Shown here: positions 27,771-33,687 of the stretch, piece after piece | Layout: every line of letters starts with the position of its first letter | How positions within the stretch are numbered: the stretch's first letter is position 1 | Assembly (NCBI GenBank): GCA_017615275.1 | Contig: JAGAAO010000017.1 | Location: forward strand, 79,028 to 143,027 | From: Butyrivibrio sp. | Lineage (GTDB): Bacteria > Bacillota > Clostridia > Lachnospirales > Lachnospiraceae | DNA: 64,000 nt | Direction: 5' to 3' | The notes under the pieces: generated by a model | What the model was told of the DNA's origin: nothing | The model's database searches: none | What the model saw: the letters and a program-made list of their open reading frames with translations, nothing else | Made by a program: the position numbers and the translations under genes

Positions 27771-28777
27771 TGAAAAAAAGATGGCCCATTGTGGCGATGA
27801 TAGTATGCATAGTTTTGATTATGTCTGCTGTCTTATTCTTTTTTAATAACAGAAAAGATAATTCTACGTCTCCCGAATATGTTTTCCTGTATGCAGAGAA
27901 CCAGACACCCGGATATCCAACTACATTAGGCGGAGAGAGGTTTGCGGATCTTGTCTACGAGAAGACAAACGGAAGAATAAAGATAATCGTAAAATGTAAC
28001 GCCGAACTCGGAAGCGAAGCCGAAGTCATCAATCAGATGAAGTACGGAGGCATAGCTTTTGCGAGAGTTTCGGTTTCACAGCTTGCTGAGAAAATTCAGC
28101 TTATGAACGTTCTTCTTTTACCTTATCTCTACAATGATTCGGATCATATGTGGAGAGTTTTGGAAGGGGAAATAGGAGACGAGTTTTTATTAAAGACAAA
28201 AGATTATGATCTTGTCGGTCTTTCCTGGTACGATGCCGGTGCCAGAAATTTCTACAGTACCAAGCCGATCACCTGCGTTGAGGACTGCAAAGGAATGAAA
28301 ATAAGAGTGCAGGAATCGACGATGATGGCTGATATGGTGTCAGCGCTTGGTGCAACACCTGTTGAGGTAGTTTATTCGGAAGTTTACTCAGCTTTTGAGC
28401 AGGGAATTGTCGACGGAGCTGAGAATAACTGGCCTTCATATGAGGCTATGAGGCATTACAGAGTAGCCGGATATTATACAATAGATGAACATGTAAGAGT
28501 TCCCGAGATGCAGATCTGTTCCAAAGTTATATGGGATAAACTCAGTGAAGAAGACCAGAAGATAATAACAGAGTGCGCAAAGGAATCTTCAATATATGAG
28601 AGACAGCTTTGGAAGCAAAGAGAAGCCAGTTCCAGAAAGATTGCCGTTTCATACGGCACGCAGGTGATTACTCTTTCTCCCGAAGAGAAAAAGAAATTCA
28701 GAGAAGCCATGAGTGACGTATATGAGCGGTACAGTGGCAGTTATATGAATATTGTAAGAAGAATACGTGATTATTGA
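27770..28777 (+). CDS. DctP-like binding protein, probable sensing partner
   Basis: A second DctP-family protein of 335 residues, with the same signature blocks as the transporter's own binding protein (GMKIRVQESTMMADMVSALG, then EVYSAFEQGIVDGAENNW). Its N-terminus is a hydrophobic helix without a lipobox Cys, so it is probably membrane-tethered. Translation is coupled to the regulator gene. In known three-component systems a dedicated binding protein of this kind reports ligand to the kinase. This role is inferred from operon order. Confidence 0.85.
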   Translation: MKKRWPIVAMIVCIVLIMSAVLFFFNNRKDNSTSPEYVFLYAENQTPGYPTTLGGERFADLVYEKTNGRIKIIVKCNAELGSEAEVINQMKYGGIAFARVSVSQLAEKIQLMNVLLLPYLYNDSDHMWRVLEGEIGDEFLLKTKDYDLVGLSWYDAGARNFYSTKPITCVEDCKGMKIRVQESTMMADMVSALGATPVEVVYSEVYSAFEQGIVDGAENNWPSYEAMRHYRVAGYYTIDEHVRVPEMQICSKVIWDKLSEEDQKIITECAKESSIYERQLWKQREASSRKIAVSYGTQVITLSPEEKKKFREAMSDVYERYSGSYMNIVRRIRDY

Positions 28778-28784
28778 TGCGGTT

Positions 28785-29348
28785 TTATCTGTATGCGATC
28801 TTTCCGATGGCTGCGGAGATGCCGAGGAATGCAAATACTATTGCTTCAAGCATGAGATAAGATGTATTTTTTAAGATATAAAGAAGGACAGATATAGCGG
28901 TTGCAAATGCGATCGTTATATTTGTTCTTTTTTTAAATGTTGAATTCTCGGATGCATCAACTTCTCTGTTCGGATGATCTACAGGGCCGATAAGAACAAT
29001 AAAAAGCGCGAAAAAAATAAATATAATAAGTGATGCAGTGAGCGGAAGAGTGAGGTGTTTTATCGCAAGGAGCGATAACGTAAGAACAAGGCATGAGCCT
29101 ATGTAACAAGCAAAATAGTTTCTGAAATGAAGTCCGCCTCCGAATGAGCGCATCGGGATAAACAACAAAAAGAAGAAGAGACAGGGGAGCAACATCTTAA
29201 GGAAAAGAGCTATGAATATACTTGTAACGGTGCTCATGAATACTTCAAGAAAGCACAGAAAACCGTACTTGTATATTTCATATTCTTTTTCTTCGATGAC
29301 TCCTCTTTTTAAGATGTAATTTGTCAGCTTTGTTGCCATATGATCCAT
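28785..29348 (-). CDS. agrB: AgrB peptide-processing membrane protease
   Basis: A 187-residue integral membrane cysteine protease of the AgrB family. The catalytic pair is in place: His74 and Cys81 in RSFGGGLHFRNYFACY, seven residues apart as in Staphylococcus (His77 and Cys84). AgrB cuts the AgrD precursor and closes the thiolactone ring. It is transcribed after the LytTR regulator gene on the minus strand (gap 16 bases) and converges with the DctP-like gene, with only seven bases between stops. AGGA lies seven bases before the ATG. Unusually, no agrD lies beside it: the likely precursor gene is 2.4 kb away at 31727. Confidence 0.93.
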   Translation of the reverse strand: MDHMATKLTNYILKRGVIEEKEYEIYKYGFLCFLEVFMSTVTSIFIALFLKMLLPCLFFFLLFIPMRSFGGGLHFRNYFACYIGSCLVLTLSLLAIKHLTLPLTASLIIFIFFALFIVLIGPVDHPNREVDASENSTFKKRTNITIAFATAISVLLYILKNTSYLMLEAIVFAFLGISAAIGKIAYR

Positions 29349-29364
29349 TACATATTCCTGTGCC

Positions 29365-30105
29365 TTATTCGGTATAATTGTTGTTTCCTACCATTTCGAC
29401 AAGGCGTTTTCGAACCTCTTTTTGCCTGTTTTCACTGATCTTGAGGCAGAATTCCTTGCCGTCGTAGGTGATTGTCATGCTGCTGTAGTTCATGCGGCAT
29501 ACATATTTGTAATTTACGAGGTATGACTGATGTATCCTGAAGAAACAATGTCTTGAGCACTCGAGCTCTTTTTGTATATCGTTCAGTTTGCCGTAAAAAA
29601 TATCGCTTGTACCGTCGTTAAAGTGTATCGTGATGACGCGGTTTTTGCTCTCGAAGTAAACGATATTGTTTATGGATGTCTTTTTTACTTTTCTGTTATA
29701 GGTGTACTGGAAATACCCTTCGGCCTTATCTATCTTACTGAGCGCCTGGGAGAAGTATTTTTTGAATATTTTTTCATCGATCGGTTTGGAAAGAAATCTG
29801 AAAGGCTCAACTTCAAACAACTCTTTCAGATAGCTTTCGTAGCTTGAAACATAGATTATAAGAGAATCTCTGTCTATCGTGCGGATCATACGTGCTGTGG
29901 TTATGCCGTCGAGTTCCTTCATCTCTATGTCCATAAAGATTATGCTGTAGCGGTCGCCTTTTATGACGTTGCGGGCAAGCGGGGTCCCGTCGTAATAGAC
30001 GTCGATCTCGGGACGAATTCCTCTTGCGAGACATTCGCTGTTTAGAAGCGTTTCAAGTTTTCCTGAAAGCTTTATATCATCGTCGCAGATTGCAATTTTT
30101 ATCAT
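29365..30105 (-). CDS. agrA: AgrA-type response regulator (receiver plus LytTR)
   Basis: Residues 1-125 form a receiver with phospho-Asp59 in IIFMDIEMKELDG, and residues 140-240 a LytTR DNA-binding domain, recognised from NNIVYFESKNRVITIHF and FFRIHQSYLVNY. LytTR proteins bind pairs of short direct repeats spaced about two helical turns. Exactly such pairs occur before agrC and agrD in this window. It is divergent from agrC and followed by agrB. AGGTAGG precedes the start. Confidence 0.94.
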   Translation of the reverse strand: MIKIAICDDDIKLSGKLETLLNSECLARGIRPEIDVYYDGTPLARNVIKGDRYSIIFMDIEMKELDGITTARMIRTIDRDSLIIYVSSYESYLKELFEVEPFRFLSKPIDEKIFKKYFSQALSKIDKAEGYFQYTYNRKVKKTSINNIVYFESKNRVITIHFNDGTSDIFYGKLNDIQKELECSRHCFFRIHQSYLVNYKYVCRMNYSSMTITYDGKEFCLKISENRQKEVRKRLVEMVGNNNYTE

Positions 30106-30183
30106 GTCCTACCTCCGAAAAAATCAAGTAAAAAACTAAGCCGGTTAATAAATGCGCAGGGGCGAAATCATGACTGCAAAGGT

Positions 30184-30207
30184 AGTATAGCACATTTTTT
30201 GAAATCA
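30184..30207 (-). promoter_or_regulatory. Possible promoter of agrA-agrB
   Basis: On the minus strand, TATACT (plus 30184-30189) is preceded by a poor -35 region about 16 bases upstream. No LytTR-type repeat is seen for this direction, so agrA-agrB expression may be constitutive and low. Confidence 0.35.
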
Positions 30208-30221
30208 TACAGAAAGGAAAT

Positions 30222-30283
30222 AATTACATGAAAATCCGTAAATATTACATATGGCTAACGCACCCGTATTTTTATGCTATTAT
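30222..30283 (+). promoter_or_regulatory. agrC promoter with tandem LytTR-type sites
   Basis: ATTACATG at 30223 and ATTACATA at 30244 form direct repeats exactly 21 bp apart. A -10 box TATTAT at 30278-30283, preceded by an extended TGC, starts 34 bp after the second repeat. The -35 region is poor (CTAACG), as expected for an activated promoter. The same geometry occurs before agrD. Confidence 0.75.
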
Positions 30284-30324
30284 TTTGAATAGTGGTTATT
30301 AAAGGGAAAGAAGGGGCTTATAAG

Positions 30325-31629
30325 ATGGGAGTGTCAATTTTTTCGGGAGTTTTTTTGGCTTTTTTGCAGGTAGTGATCATTCAGAAATTTATGGATGTGT
30401 TTCTGGGTGAGAAAAATGAAGGTATCATCCATATCGTTGTATGTGCCATGTACTTTACTTTTTTAGCGGTATCGAATCTTGCAGATATTGTACCGCCGCA
30501 GATTCTGATAACGCTGAACATCTTGTCGATATTCGTTTTGGGAATCGTTGACAGAAAGGCTTCGATAAAGAGCAGTTGCTTTTTCTCCATTTTGATCTGT
30601 TCCGTATGGATGTTGGTGGAAGTCGGGTCTGTGATAGTGGTTGAAAAAGCCGGCATAGATATTGTGGCATATCAGGATGCCGTAAGCTTTGCTTCAAAGC
30701 TGATAATGTTTCTTTTGTTTTTGTTGTCACTTAAGTATTGCAAAGGACCCGGATACGGGAATATTCCTTTAAAATATTTTTTGATGATTCTGGCTATACC
30801 GCTCATCAGTATCTTTTTGATGAATCAGATATTCTTGATCGCAACACATCATGGTGAGTATGATAACTTTGCAGTTATATCGAGTATTTTTCTCCTAATG
30901 ATCAATTTTATAATTTTTGAAGTATATACGTGGATGAGCAGAGATGCGGAGCTACGGTCTCTTAATAAGCTGTACGGGCAGCAACTTGAACTTTGCAGCA
31001 GGCAGGCGGCGGAGCAGGAGCAGCTGTATCTTGAGATAAAAAGAACAAGACATGATATGAAGAGCCATTTGTCGAGCCTTTTGGGAATGGTTGAAGCAGG
31101 AGAGAGCGAAGAGGCTTCAAACTATATAGGCAGGCTTCTGGCGGACGGCGTAGGGAAATCGGGTGAAGAGATATCGCGCAGCGGAAATATTGTCATTGAT
31201 TCTCTTATTAATTACAAATATTCCATTGCACAAAAAGAGGGTATAGCCTTTGAGGCATCTGTATTTGTACCTGCTTCCATGCCGTTTAAGAGCGAACATC
31301 TGGTAATTATTTTGGGAAATCTTCTGGAAAATGCCTTCGATGCATGTAAGAAAGTCCAGCCAAAGGGCAGATTTATCAAACTTGATATGGGATTTGAAAA
31401 GAATATGCTCAATATTTGCATAAAAAACAGTTGTATTTCCGAGAACAGAAGAGATAAACACGGTAATTTTTTCTCCACCAAACATGACGCGGAACATCAC
31501 GGAATAGGGCTTGCATCGGTCAAACAAGCGGTTGAAGGATATGACGGAGAGATGGTGATCGATGACAAAGGAAATCAGTTCAGTGTTTCTGTTGTAATGT
31601 ACGGAAACGACATTAATTCCAATACGTAA
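30325..31629 (+). CDS. agrC: AgrC-type sensor histidine kinase (GHKL)
   Basis: A 434-residue receptor kinase: six or seven membrane helices (1-205), then a coiled dimerisation segment with the phospho-acceptor His near 244 in RTRHDMKSHL, and a GHKL ATPase domain with ILGNLLENAFDAC and HGIGLASVKQAV. This is the AgrC layout, so it should sense the cyclic peptide made from AgrD and phosphorylate AgrA. The ATG at 30325 follows AAGGGG; a GTG at 30292 would overlap the promoter. It is divergent from agrA and precedes agrD by about 100 bases. Confidence 0.9.
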   Translation: MGVSIFSGVFLAFLQVVIIQKFMDVFLGEKNEGIIHIVVCAMYFTFLAVSNLADIVPPQILITLNILSIFVLGIVDRKASIKSSCFFSILICSVWMLVEVGSVIVVEKAGIDIVAYQDAVSFASKLIMFLLFLLSLKYCKGPGYGNIPLKYFLMILAIPLISIFLMNQIFLIATHHGEYDNFAVISSIFLLMINFIIFEVYTWMSRDAELRSLNKLYGQQLELCSRQAAEQEQLYLEIKRTRHDMKSHLSSLLGMVEAGESEEASNYIGRLLADGVGKSGEEISRSGNIVIDSLINYKYSIAQKEGIAFEASVFVPASMPFKSEHLVIILGNLLENAFDACKKVQPKGRFIKLDMGFEKNMLNICIKNSCISENRRDKHGNFFSTKHDAEHHGIGLASVKQAVEGYDGEMVIDDKGNQFSVSVVMYGNDINSNT

Positions 31630-31630
31630 A

Positions 31631-31692
31631 AATTACATGAAAATCCGATATTTTTACATGCAATCTTTTTTTATTTCAAATAGACGTATAAT
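31631..31692 (+). promoter_or_regulatory. agrD promoter with tandem LytTR-type sites
   Basis: ATTACATG at 31632 and TTTACATG at 31653 are direct repeats 21 bp apart, and the -10 box TATAAT at 31687-31692 starts 34 bp after the second one. The 17 bases AATTACATGAAAATCCG at 31631 are identical to those at 30222 before agrC. The -35 region (TCTTTT) is poor, pointing to activator dependence. Confidence 0.78.
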
Positions 31693-31726
31693 ACTTATAG
31701 CGTTTAAAATAAGGAGGGTATTTGAA

Positions 31727-31864
31727 ATGAAGAAAGAGAGCGTTATTGTGGCGAAAGTTCTGAAAGAAGTTTCGCGCAAGGCAGTTCAGGCAGGAGCGGA
31801 CAGCAGATGTATGTTTGTTTTGCATCAGCCTAAGATGCCTTCTGGTATTAAGAAAATGAAATAA
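31727..31864 (+). CDS. agrD: AgrD autoinducer peptide precursor, 45 aa
   Basis: The 45-residue product has the three parts of AgrD: an amphipathic helix (residues 1-22, KVLKEVSRKAV), a short core with Cys28 in CMFVL, and a charged C-terminal tail HQPKMPSGIKKMK of the type AgrB recognises. By analogy with the staphylococcal precursor, where Cys28 also closes a five-residue thiolactone, the ring is predicted to be Cys28-Leu32. AGGAGGG lies eight bases before the ATG. An upstream in-frame extension would cross the promoter and is rejected. A strong terminator follows. Confidence 0.87.
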   Translation: MKKESVIVAKVLKEVSRKAVQAGADSRCMFVLHQPKMPSGIKKMK

Positions 31865-31874
31865 TCATAAGAAA

Positions 31875-31907
31875 ACCCGGCACAGAAACTGTGCCGGGTC
31901 GTTTTTT
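31875..31907. terminator. Strong bidirectional terminator after agrD
   Basis: An 11-bp stem (ACCCGGCACAG at 31875-31885 with 31889-31899), loop AAA, then TCG and six T residues. On the minus strand it is followed by TTTTCTT, so it also ends the convergent gene at 31909. Confidence 0.9.
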
Positions 31908-31908
31908 A

Positions 31909-33687
31909 TTATTTCTTCAATAACCAGTCGTATCTTTCGATGTCGATATCAAAAACAGTATTTTTGCTATCGGCAATATCAATTCTGATGCTCTGTCTGT
32001 TGGTATAGTCATCTTCATCGGTGCCATTTAAGAAGATTTCATAGTTGTTGTATTTCTCTTCATATTTATAGTCTGTAATCTTCTTGTCCTTAAGTGTTTT
32101 ATCAAGCTCATCCTTTGACATTCCGCGCTTGATTCCTCCGGGAAGAGTGAAATCAAAGTCATCGCTGAATCCTGAAGCAGATATAGATACAACGATTGAA
32201 TTTTCAAGTGTAACCGCGCTGTCAAGAGGATTCAATGCTTCAACGAAAATACGATAATTACCGTTTTCAAGAGTTACAAGAGCTGAATGCTTTGAAGGGA
32301 TAGCATCTATTCTGTCTCTGTTCTTCCAACCGTTTTTAGCCAATTCACTATATGGAACGGGCACATTATATACAACGCCGTTGATAGAAACATTACCTGA
32401 TAATATATCGTCTCCGAGTTTTGTAGGAGCCTGGTATAAGCTGAGGTATTCGGGAGTCTCGGTGCTTACTTCGGGCTGCTCAAAATCTTCAGGAGCTTTC
32501 TTGTTGCGCATAGTAACGCTGGTCAAAATTTCATTTTCAAAAGAATAAACAGTTGAGAGGTTAAACTCATCATCGTCGCTTCCTCTGTATGTGTAGGTTA
32601 TTGTATTGTCTCTTGTTGATGTTGAGTTGGGTTCTCCGAGTACATCTTTAACTTCGTCGGGAGTGGTTTTCTGCAATGTGAACTGATCGTTGCAGAATTT
32701 CACTTCAGCACCTGTTCTTTTTACAAATGAATCGGAAATACTTACATCGGCGATCATACATTCGGAAACGGGTCTTGCATCTATTGAATGATTGATCACA
32801 AACATAGATACAGTTGAATCTCCTTTTCCGGAGTATGTCATCGAAATGATCTCAGTCTGATCTTTATTGATCTTTACATCTGCATCTTCGGGATCTCTGT
32901 ACTTCCATCCGTTGTCAAGGAACTCGTTGATATCAACGGGAAGAGTGTACTGTTTGCCGTCTACGCTGAAATTGGAAATGTTAGTTTCTCCGCTGACAGG
33001 AGCAGCTTTCGAGGTTTTATCATCATCTTCCTCGGGTTCTTCTTCCGGCTCTTCCTCGGGTTCTTCTTCGGGCTCTACATCCTCTACGATCTCTTTATCA
33101 GGTTCATAATCATCTTTGGAACTCTTTGAACCCATGCCGAATAATACCGCTACAATAGCGATAAGTGCTACAGCAGCAACAACGATGATTATGATCTGTG
33201 TTGTGCTGAGACCCTTTTTGGGAGCCTGTCCGGGGAATGTACCGAACTGATTACCTGCAGGCTGACCAAAAGGTGGCTGACCGGGCTGATTTCCCATAGG
33301 CTGACCGAAAGGCTGACCGGGCTGATTTCCCATGGGCTGACCGAAAGGCTGACCGGGCTGGTTGCCTGCGGGCTGGCCAAAAGGTGCCTGACCGGGCTGA
33401 TTTCCTGCGGGTTTACCAAAAGGCTGACCCGGCTGATTTCCTGTGGGCTGACCAAAGGGCTGTCCGGGCTTATTACCTGTAGGCTCTCCAAAAAGATTAG
33501 TGTTCTGGTTGCCTATAGGTTGTCCGGGCTGTTTGTTTGCAGGCGGTACAGGCTGGCTGAATGTGTTGCCTGCCGGCTGCTGATTCATATTGTTCTGCCC
33601 AACAGGCTGCTGGGGGTTGGGCGCTGACGTCGGGGTATTGTCAGTAATTGGTTGTCCTGTAATAGGATCAAATTTTCTTTCACTCAT
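31909..33687 (-). CDS. Membrane protein with Gln/Pro/Gly repeats and duplicated domain
   Basis: Of 592 residues, 10-155 are repeats of [11 protein letters not shown] type, 160-187 form one membrane helix, and 195-225 is a Glu/Asp/Pro stretch. The rest holds two related domains: [21 protein letters not shown] near 240 and [21 protein letters not shown] near 440. Each is followed by a segment resembling the BamE/SmpA-like fold ([11 protein letters not shown]). The N-terminal repeat tail should be cytoplasmic and the paired domains outside. Function unknown. RBS GGAGG lies before the ATG. The tail style resembles that of the PrsW-like protein at 20386. Confidence 0.82.
33195..33540 (-). repeat. 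In-gene tandem repeats encoding Gly-Asn-Gln-Pro-Gly-Gln-Pro
   Basis: Units of about 45-54 bp encoding [11 protein letters not shown] variants repeat at least seven times with small changes. The pattern suggests growth by slippage and possible length variation between strains. Confidence 0.85.

Follow-up and report, generated by a model that had tools for sequence, protein, structure and literature searches.

A divergent agr locus in Butyrivibrio with paired operator-like sites before the receptor and signal genes

Results

Genes and promoters of the locus

We analyzed a stretch of 64,000 nucleotides from Butyrivibrio sp. (Lachnospiraceae; assembly GCA_017615275.1, contig JAGAAO010000017.1, positions 79,028 to 143,027 of the forward strand), hereafter the window, and in particular an agr-type quorum-sensing locus within it. 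The agr gene set is complete and divided between the strands, with agrB and agrA on the minus strand followed by agrC and agrD on the plus strand, and a tandem pair of direct repeats, putatively an operator, precedes each of the two plus-strand genes. The features of the locus, in window positions, are:

28785..29348, minus strand: agrB, AgrD-processing membrane peptidase (PF04647, E 8.7e-36, 123 bits against a cut-off of 23)
29365..30105, minus strand: agrA, response regulator with receiver domain PF00072 (Response_reg) and LytTR DNA-binding domain PF04397
30184..30189, minus strand: likely -10 box of the agrA-agrB unit, TATACT (AGTATA on the plus strand), preceded by TGC, an extended -10
30222..30251, plus strand: putative agrC tandem operator, TTACAT at 30224 and 30245, spacing 21 bp
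30278..30283, plus strand: agrC -10 box TATTAT, starting 33 bp after the start of the second TTACAT; 5/6 columns invariant in clade A (defined below)
30325..31629, plus strand: agrC, membrane receptor histidine kinase (HATPase_c_5, PF14501, E 2.6e-21)
31631..31660, plus strand: putative agrD tandem operator, TTACAT at 31633 and 31654, spacing 21 bp, directly after the agrC stop codon
31687..31692, plus strand: agrD -10 box TATAAT, starting 33 bp after the start of the second TTACAT; 6/6 columns invariant in clade A
31727..31864, plus strand: agrD, signal precursor of 45 amino acids (TIGR04223, 35.8 bits against a cut-off of 19)
31875..31899, bidirectional, no strand assigned: terminator-like hairpin 3' of agrD

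AgrB has His74 and Cys81 spaced seven residues apart (H74-x6-C81, HFRNYFAC), the His/Cys pair of known AgrB proteins. AgrA contains the sequence FMDI; the NCBIfam AgrA equivalog scores 34.4 bits on it, far under its cut-off of 400, with the BtsR and LytR models slightly higher, and the nine PDB sequences found by phmmer align with the receiver half only. Seven hydrophobic segments, an RHDMKSH box and an NLLENA box mark AgrC, whose start we took to be the ATG at 30325 rather than the GTG at 30292 of the mechanical open reading frame call. The AgrD precursor has a cysteine core, CMFVL, which is predicted to form the thiolactone ring, then the proline-containing HQPKMP, and it ends in the basic IKKMK, unlike staphylococcal AgrD with its acidic tail. 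The assembly (3.18 Mb, 84.8% complete) yields one AgrB, one AgrD and three AgrC-like matches, agrC among them. Searching with AgrC returned seven loci of named organisms, and the four closest, at 72-75% identity, are from Butyrivibrio. The four genes do not form a single co-directional operon, a trait that we do not treat as defining for agr, because published gene order varies.

Before agrC, ATTACATG begins at 30223, ATTACATA at 30244 and TATTAT at 30278; before agrD, ATTACATG begins at 31632, TTTACATG at 31653 and TATAAT at 31687. The original prediction, which was made from the sequence of the window, had described this layout, and the gene coordinates bear out its strand assignments. It was also exact in placing the repeats 21 bp apart at both genes, in counting 34 bp from the second octamer (33 bp from TTACAT) to the start of each -10 box, and in pointing to 17 identical bases, AATTACATGAAAATCCG, at 30222 and 31631. 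The -35 boxes, which it had called poor, agree with the consensus in 3/6 letters before agrC (CTAACG) and 1/6 before agrD (TCTTTT) when a 17-bp spacer is used, and a sigma-70 scan listed neither promoter. At both genes the tandem repeats end just upstream of these hexamers. On the strand of agrA and agrB, there is no such repeat pair at one mismatch or fewer, again as had been claimed, and the TATACT box lies there.

Scores of the sites in the window and in the genus

The genus sample comprised 79 genomes, in which AgrC was counted at E<=1e-30. AgrC of the window's lineage is present in ten of them, which we divide into clade A (n=6: the window, G153, G154, G172, G199 and G218) and clade B (n=4: G177, G185, G196 and G219).

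A matrix built from ten relatives' sites, with the window left out, gave the two window sites 47.7 and 44.2 bits, as against 4.8 bits for the next-best site in the window and 11.2 bits for the best site in twelve simulated 64-kb sequences. At zero or one mismatch, the core pattern occurs at these two places only in the whole assembly. At two mismatches or fewer, it matches 23 times in this assembly (14 in a reversed control) and 138 times in the six clade A genomes (106 in the control), the real sites counted. Some of the loose matches recur across species as near-identical strings; these were set aside as presumably conserved coding sequence. Within clade A, 21/29 and 20/29 columns of the sites are invariant, compared with 88/182 and 22/69 columns of other intergenic DNA.

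A 64-column sequence model, R1, was built from sites in these ten genomes and run over the genus sample. It found 15 matches of at least 38 bits, all of them in the ten genomes with this AgrC, and two further matches at 19.4 bits, one each in G000 and G164; in the other 69 genomes it found no strong site (at least 38 bits). This silence in 69 genomes is the informative part of the search. Filters were stricter in the genus-wide run, for which 67 candidates per genome were scored, whereas 150 candidates were scored in the window's own genome, where there was no third strong site. The third match there (C4:85422, 19.4 bits) was rejected: its alignment is limited to columns 14-63, the first repeat is missing, and it is directed into an open reading frame on the opposite strand. 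Because R1 gives two strong matches only in this genome and the loose matches stay near the control level, the sequence data support no external AgrA target in clade A, although degenerate targets could be missed.

Conservation and rearrangement in the relatives

All six clade A genomes have the split order agrBA|agrCD of the window and carry repeat pairs ahead of agrC and agrD alike, one of the agrD copies being degenerate, so that the search of relatives for the divergent order and the repeat pairs, which the original prediction had proposed as a check, came out in its favor. AgrA identity across the five clade A relatives is 86.6-88.6%. In the aligned sites of both clades, the spacing of 21 and the -10 distance of 33 are kept, except in the degenerate copy, which belongs to G172. 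Neither clade has tandem sites at agrA or agrB. TATACT stands at a like place in 10/10 intergenic regions of the two clades and is preceded by TGN in seven (3/6 in clade A, 4/4 in clade B).

Clade B keeps the divergence of agrBA from agrC (4/4 genomes) and differs in its sites. None of its four genomes has a tandem site before agrC; the sole site lies just 3' of agrC, before a gene with a VTC domain, with the 21/33 geometry (repeat spacing/-10 distance) in 4/4 and with TGACA in place of TTACA in G185. In G177 and G219, the VTC gene and a DUF4956 gene are followed about 20 bp on by agrD (the domain search was made on G177 only); in G185 and G196, VTC and DUF4956 reading frames were seen by eye, with AgrD at the corresponding place. 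Two genes intervene and the site still precedes the agrD unit; the operator thus remains attached to the unit whose last gene is agrD. In two of the clade B loci (L157 5844-7465, L160 8058-9679), the AgrA-type site is followed by a tight VTC-DUF4956-agrD unit, which agrD closes, and signal precursor and polyphosphate-polymerase-like output gene are apparently co-transcribed there.

Further upstream, G177 and G219 carry genes for an AraC-type regulator and a TRAP-binding protein that by eye resemble neighbors of the locus in the window, with a WYL-domain gene between them (WYL shown for G177). A large RHS-repeat protein is encoded behind two small open reading frames in G177 (L157 8366-13822), starting about 0.9 kb downstream of agrD.

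In an AgrA tree of 25 rows, the window included (26 were tried, and L161 was dropped for too short a match), clades A and B group together with modest support (88/84), next to Roseburia faecis, GAM79 and G022. As the site of the agrD unit is common to both clades and the agrC site is not, parsimony indicates that the agrC copy was probably gained in clade A, from an ancestor with an operator before the agrD unit alone.

The same geometry before agrD in the family

The family sample comprised 150 genomes, with 75 agrD genes in 42 of them. For 72 of these genes (the window and two agrD genes with less than 150 bp upstream were left out), we scored TTACAT-x-TTACAT-x-TATAAT in 208 geometries over the 400 bp upstream. 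The 21/33 cell ranks first of all 208, at 12.33 against a mean of 11.59 (standard deviation 0.138), and scores 11.37 downstream of agrD. At least 14/18 letters are reached at 21/33 by 11/72 agrD genes, as against 2.4 for the average cell. A motif-free test upstream of agrD likewise gave 21 bp as the best of the spacings from 12 to 40 (z 5.3 and 6.6). Since 61/72 genes fall short of the threshold, the 21/33 arrangement before agrD is a family tendency with sequence drift and not a universal motif. The site of the agrD unit is the wider feature, and the agrC site is specific to one clade.

By eye, repeats spaced 21 bp precede agrD in G104, G025, G086, R. faecis and GAM79, and repeats spaced 22 bp in G088; G173 and G203 have one such repeat before agrD, and G213 has one before agrB. 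In G226 (L161 5490-5770), agrD diverges from agrC-agrA-agrB and has a different 21-bp direct repeat, GGGACGG, upstream. The repeat sequence may thus track the AgrA lineage while the spacing is kept. The R. faecis M72 locus (L054) also has, within 953-2615, a 21-bp TTACA pair on the minus strand upstream of a radical SAM peptide maturase-like gene (by eye), followed by a small cysteine-rich open reading frame, possibly a peptide-natural-product target of agr.

Separation of agrB from agrD

The original prediction considered the uncoupling of agrB from agrD unusual. It is uncommon in the family, but it is usual in the genus and not unique to the window. AgrB and AgrD were each found in 14/79 genus genomes and together in 12, and in all 12 the two genes are non-adjacent (on opposite strands in 11; on the same strand, 2.3 kb apart, in one). 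Of the 75 agrD genes of the family, 45 adjoin a same-strand agrB (31 in the order D-B, 14 in the order B-D), and 13 have agrB within 10 kb but non-adjacent or on the other strand (opposite-strand in four, the window included). The remaining 17 lack an agrB within 10 kb, and the single genome G054 accounts for 13 of them. Three agrD genes without agrB within 10 kb (G131 C52, G131 C62, G063 C154) lie at most 110 bp from a contig end, so that their agrB is possibly cut off.

The 13 AgrD precursors of G054 (loci L205, L208, L212, L218, L222, L223, L227, L236, L240, L245, L248, L257 and L269) differ in their cores (CFFFF, CLFWF, CWFLW and others), and the genome has only two AgrB matches, neither within 10 kb; 11/13 of these genes score below 14 at the 21/33 geometry. 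GAM79 (L053 and L055) has two AgrC genes about 9 kb apart, one within agrA-agrC-agrB and the other followed by agrD, and appears to hold a duplicated, partly split agr system.

Surroundings of the locus

Beyond the terminator-like hairpin, on the minus strand (31909-33687), lies the gene for a protein of 592 amino acids with PG/Q-rich N-terminal repeats and one likely membrane segment, for which Pfam gave no match at E 0.01; the gene adjoins agrD in five other clade A loci too. A "near" mode search gave no plasmid match to 28700-31910, mobile origin having been only lightly examined, and the two proteins tried gave no match to a defence family. Rfam has no match in the window at gathering scores, and therefore no RNAIII homologue of a described family.

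Discussion

The split layout with its paired sites is real and conserved. Moreover, comparative evidence supports the view that the sites behave like a LytTR (AgrA) operator: the spacing and the -10 distance are kept across species, the site stays before the agrD unit despite the reordering of genes, it was found within the genus only in genomes with this agr lineage, and a similar geometry turns up before agrD elsewhere in the family. The original prediction had gone further and held that the sites strongly suggest binding of AgrA at both promoters and a positive loop. Its operators are LytTR-operator-like by comparison, and from them we infer binding and activation.

Together, our data suggest a model of a divergent, two-unit agr system, to which we give a probability of about 0.8, in which AgrA would activate the signal and receptor genes in a positive loop and agrBA would be expressed independently. 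We take this division from the poor -35 boxes with repeats just upstream of them at agrC and agrD, and from the lack of such repeats at agrA. A minus-strand promoter of the sigma-A type would supply AgrA and AgrB constitutively, outside the loop. By analogy with the family, AgrB would cut AgrD and cyclize it to a short thiolactone peptide, and AgrC would sense the peptide and phosphorylate AgrA. The LytTR domain of AgrA would then bind both TTACAT direct repeats, and the bound regulator could offset the poor -35 at the two plus-strand promoters and raise the expression of agrC and agrD. Positive feedback would in this way be limited to receptor and signal.

Several observations weigh against this model or narrow it. 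The agrD gene may also be transcribed by read-through from the agrC promoter, a shared transcript being possible because no terminator-like site was found by a terminator scan between the two genes. The agrD site of G172 (L044) is degenerate (ATACAC/CTACAT, 13.2 bits, E 0.45), with its -10 box one base further off than 33. In clade B the receptor gene lacks a site, so feedback on the receptor is not a general trait. Relative to the agrA -10 box, the agrC operator sits upstream at a distance of about 35-61 bp, and it may for that reason affect agrA as well. In the family, only the 11/72 agrD genes reach 14/18 letters at 21/33, and in the motif-free test the 21-bp spacing is also overrepresented downstream of agrD (5.71 and 6.67, the means being 5.37 and 6.29; about 3 standard deviations), so that part of that signal is not promoter-specific. 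Finally, the recall of the sites by R1 is circular, since the model was trained on sites from these genomes.

The continuity between agrC and agrD and the degenerate copy in G172 would also suit a single operon transcribed mainly from the agrC promoter, with the agrD site as a relic or a minor internal promoter. We consider this unlikely, given that the agrD site and -10 box are conserved as well as those of agrC, and that the one site of clade B is upstream of the agrD unit. The sites might, on the other hand, be operators of another LytTR regulator, or AgrA might act on them as a repressor. The other AgrC-like kinases of the genome make further LytTR-type regulators likely, but strong sites in the genus were found only in genomes with this AgrA/AgrC lineage. 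There they adjoin the genes of that lineage, and their position directly ahead of a poor -35 remains that of an activator site, so that we consider this explanation improbable as well. Chance similarity in AT-rich DNA can be dismissed despite loose core matches nearly as frequent as in the control, as it is contradicted by the matrix scores (47.7 and 44.2 bits, when simulated sequences reach no more than 11.2), the conservation across ten genomes and the genus-wide search.

Within the model of a positive loop on receptor and signal, we put forward a further idea only tentatively, and rather doubt it: that the direct regulon of AgrA has shrunk in clade A to its own receptor and signal, and that the operator of clade B drives VTC, DUF4956 and agrD. 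If this were true, clade A would have a self-contained switch in which amplification is limited to sensitivity (AgrC) and signal supply (AgrD), the levels of processing and regulator being fixed, and clade B would make output and signal from one transcript.

The locus would represent an agr circuit in a rumen commensal in which receptor and signal, the two gains of the loop, have promoters apart from that of the regulator and the processing enzyme. Such a system would allow a direct test of which component has to be autoinduced, a question of quorum-sensing theory. The 21/33 tendency before agrD provides a simple computational handle on AgrA targets in Lachnospiraceae. Judging by titles and the openings of abstracts, we found no publication that maps such an operator in Lachnospiraceae, and none on this layout or operator in Butyrivibrio. 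A review reports agrA and agrB genes in 199 rumen genomes, in passages that do not mention layout or operators (PMC10838665), and C. thermocellum has an agrD without an apparent agr operon (PMC5322536).

Among known LytTR systems, most repeats measure 9 bp and are separated by 12 bp (a spacing of 21 bp) upstream of -35, and individual repeats are poorly conserved (PMC6193735). HdrRM and BrsRM share with our locus direct repeats at 21 bp upstream of -35 and autoactivation, which in our case is proposed; their repeats, of the ACCNCTTAN kind, lie mostly about 10 bp upstream of -35, further from -10 than here (PMC6193735). By eye, TTACATGAA overlaps only partially with the LytTR forms in Tables 2 and 3 of that paper. 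HdrRM and BrsRM consist of a regulator and a membrane protein, whereas a peptide, a kinase and a response regulator are present here.

In staphylococci, AgrA binds to a pair of direct repeats, and the promoters concerned have suboptimal spacers (PMC4227749). The agr system of S. aureus (agrBDCA, P2/P3) resembles ours in its four components, a LytTR-type AgrA, paired repeats and positive feedback (PMC4227749, PMC3754575), the last of these being predicted here. It has all four genes in one operon and RNAIII divergent from it, whereas here agrBA is split off without a site and the order differs. The original prediction called agrBDCA the classical order, which is right for staphylococci but only there, as the agrACDB of Clostridioides difficile and the fsrABDC of Enterococcus faecalis are also published (PMC3754575). 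C. difficile agr2 has, as here, the receptor gene followed by the signal gene (PMC3754575). It is one co-directional locus, whereas agrA and agrB are on the other strand in our case. In E. faecalis, fsrA has a separate promoter. With the fsrABDC order (PMC3754575), the regulator gene is outside the induced unit, as we propose for agrA. In contrast to the separate and divergent signal and processing genes described here, fsrD lies inside fsrB (PMC3673130). The locus of R. faecis M72 shares with ours an agrD that diverges from the other agr genes and has a 21/33 repeat before it (by eye), but its agrA, agrC and agrB are co-directional, while in the Butyrivibrio locus agrC is on the strand opposite to agrA and agrB.

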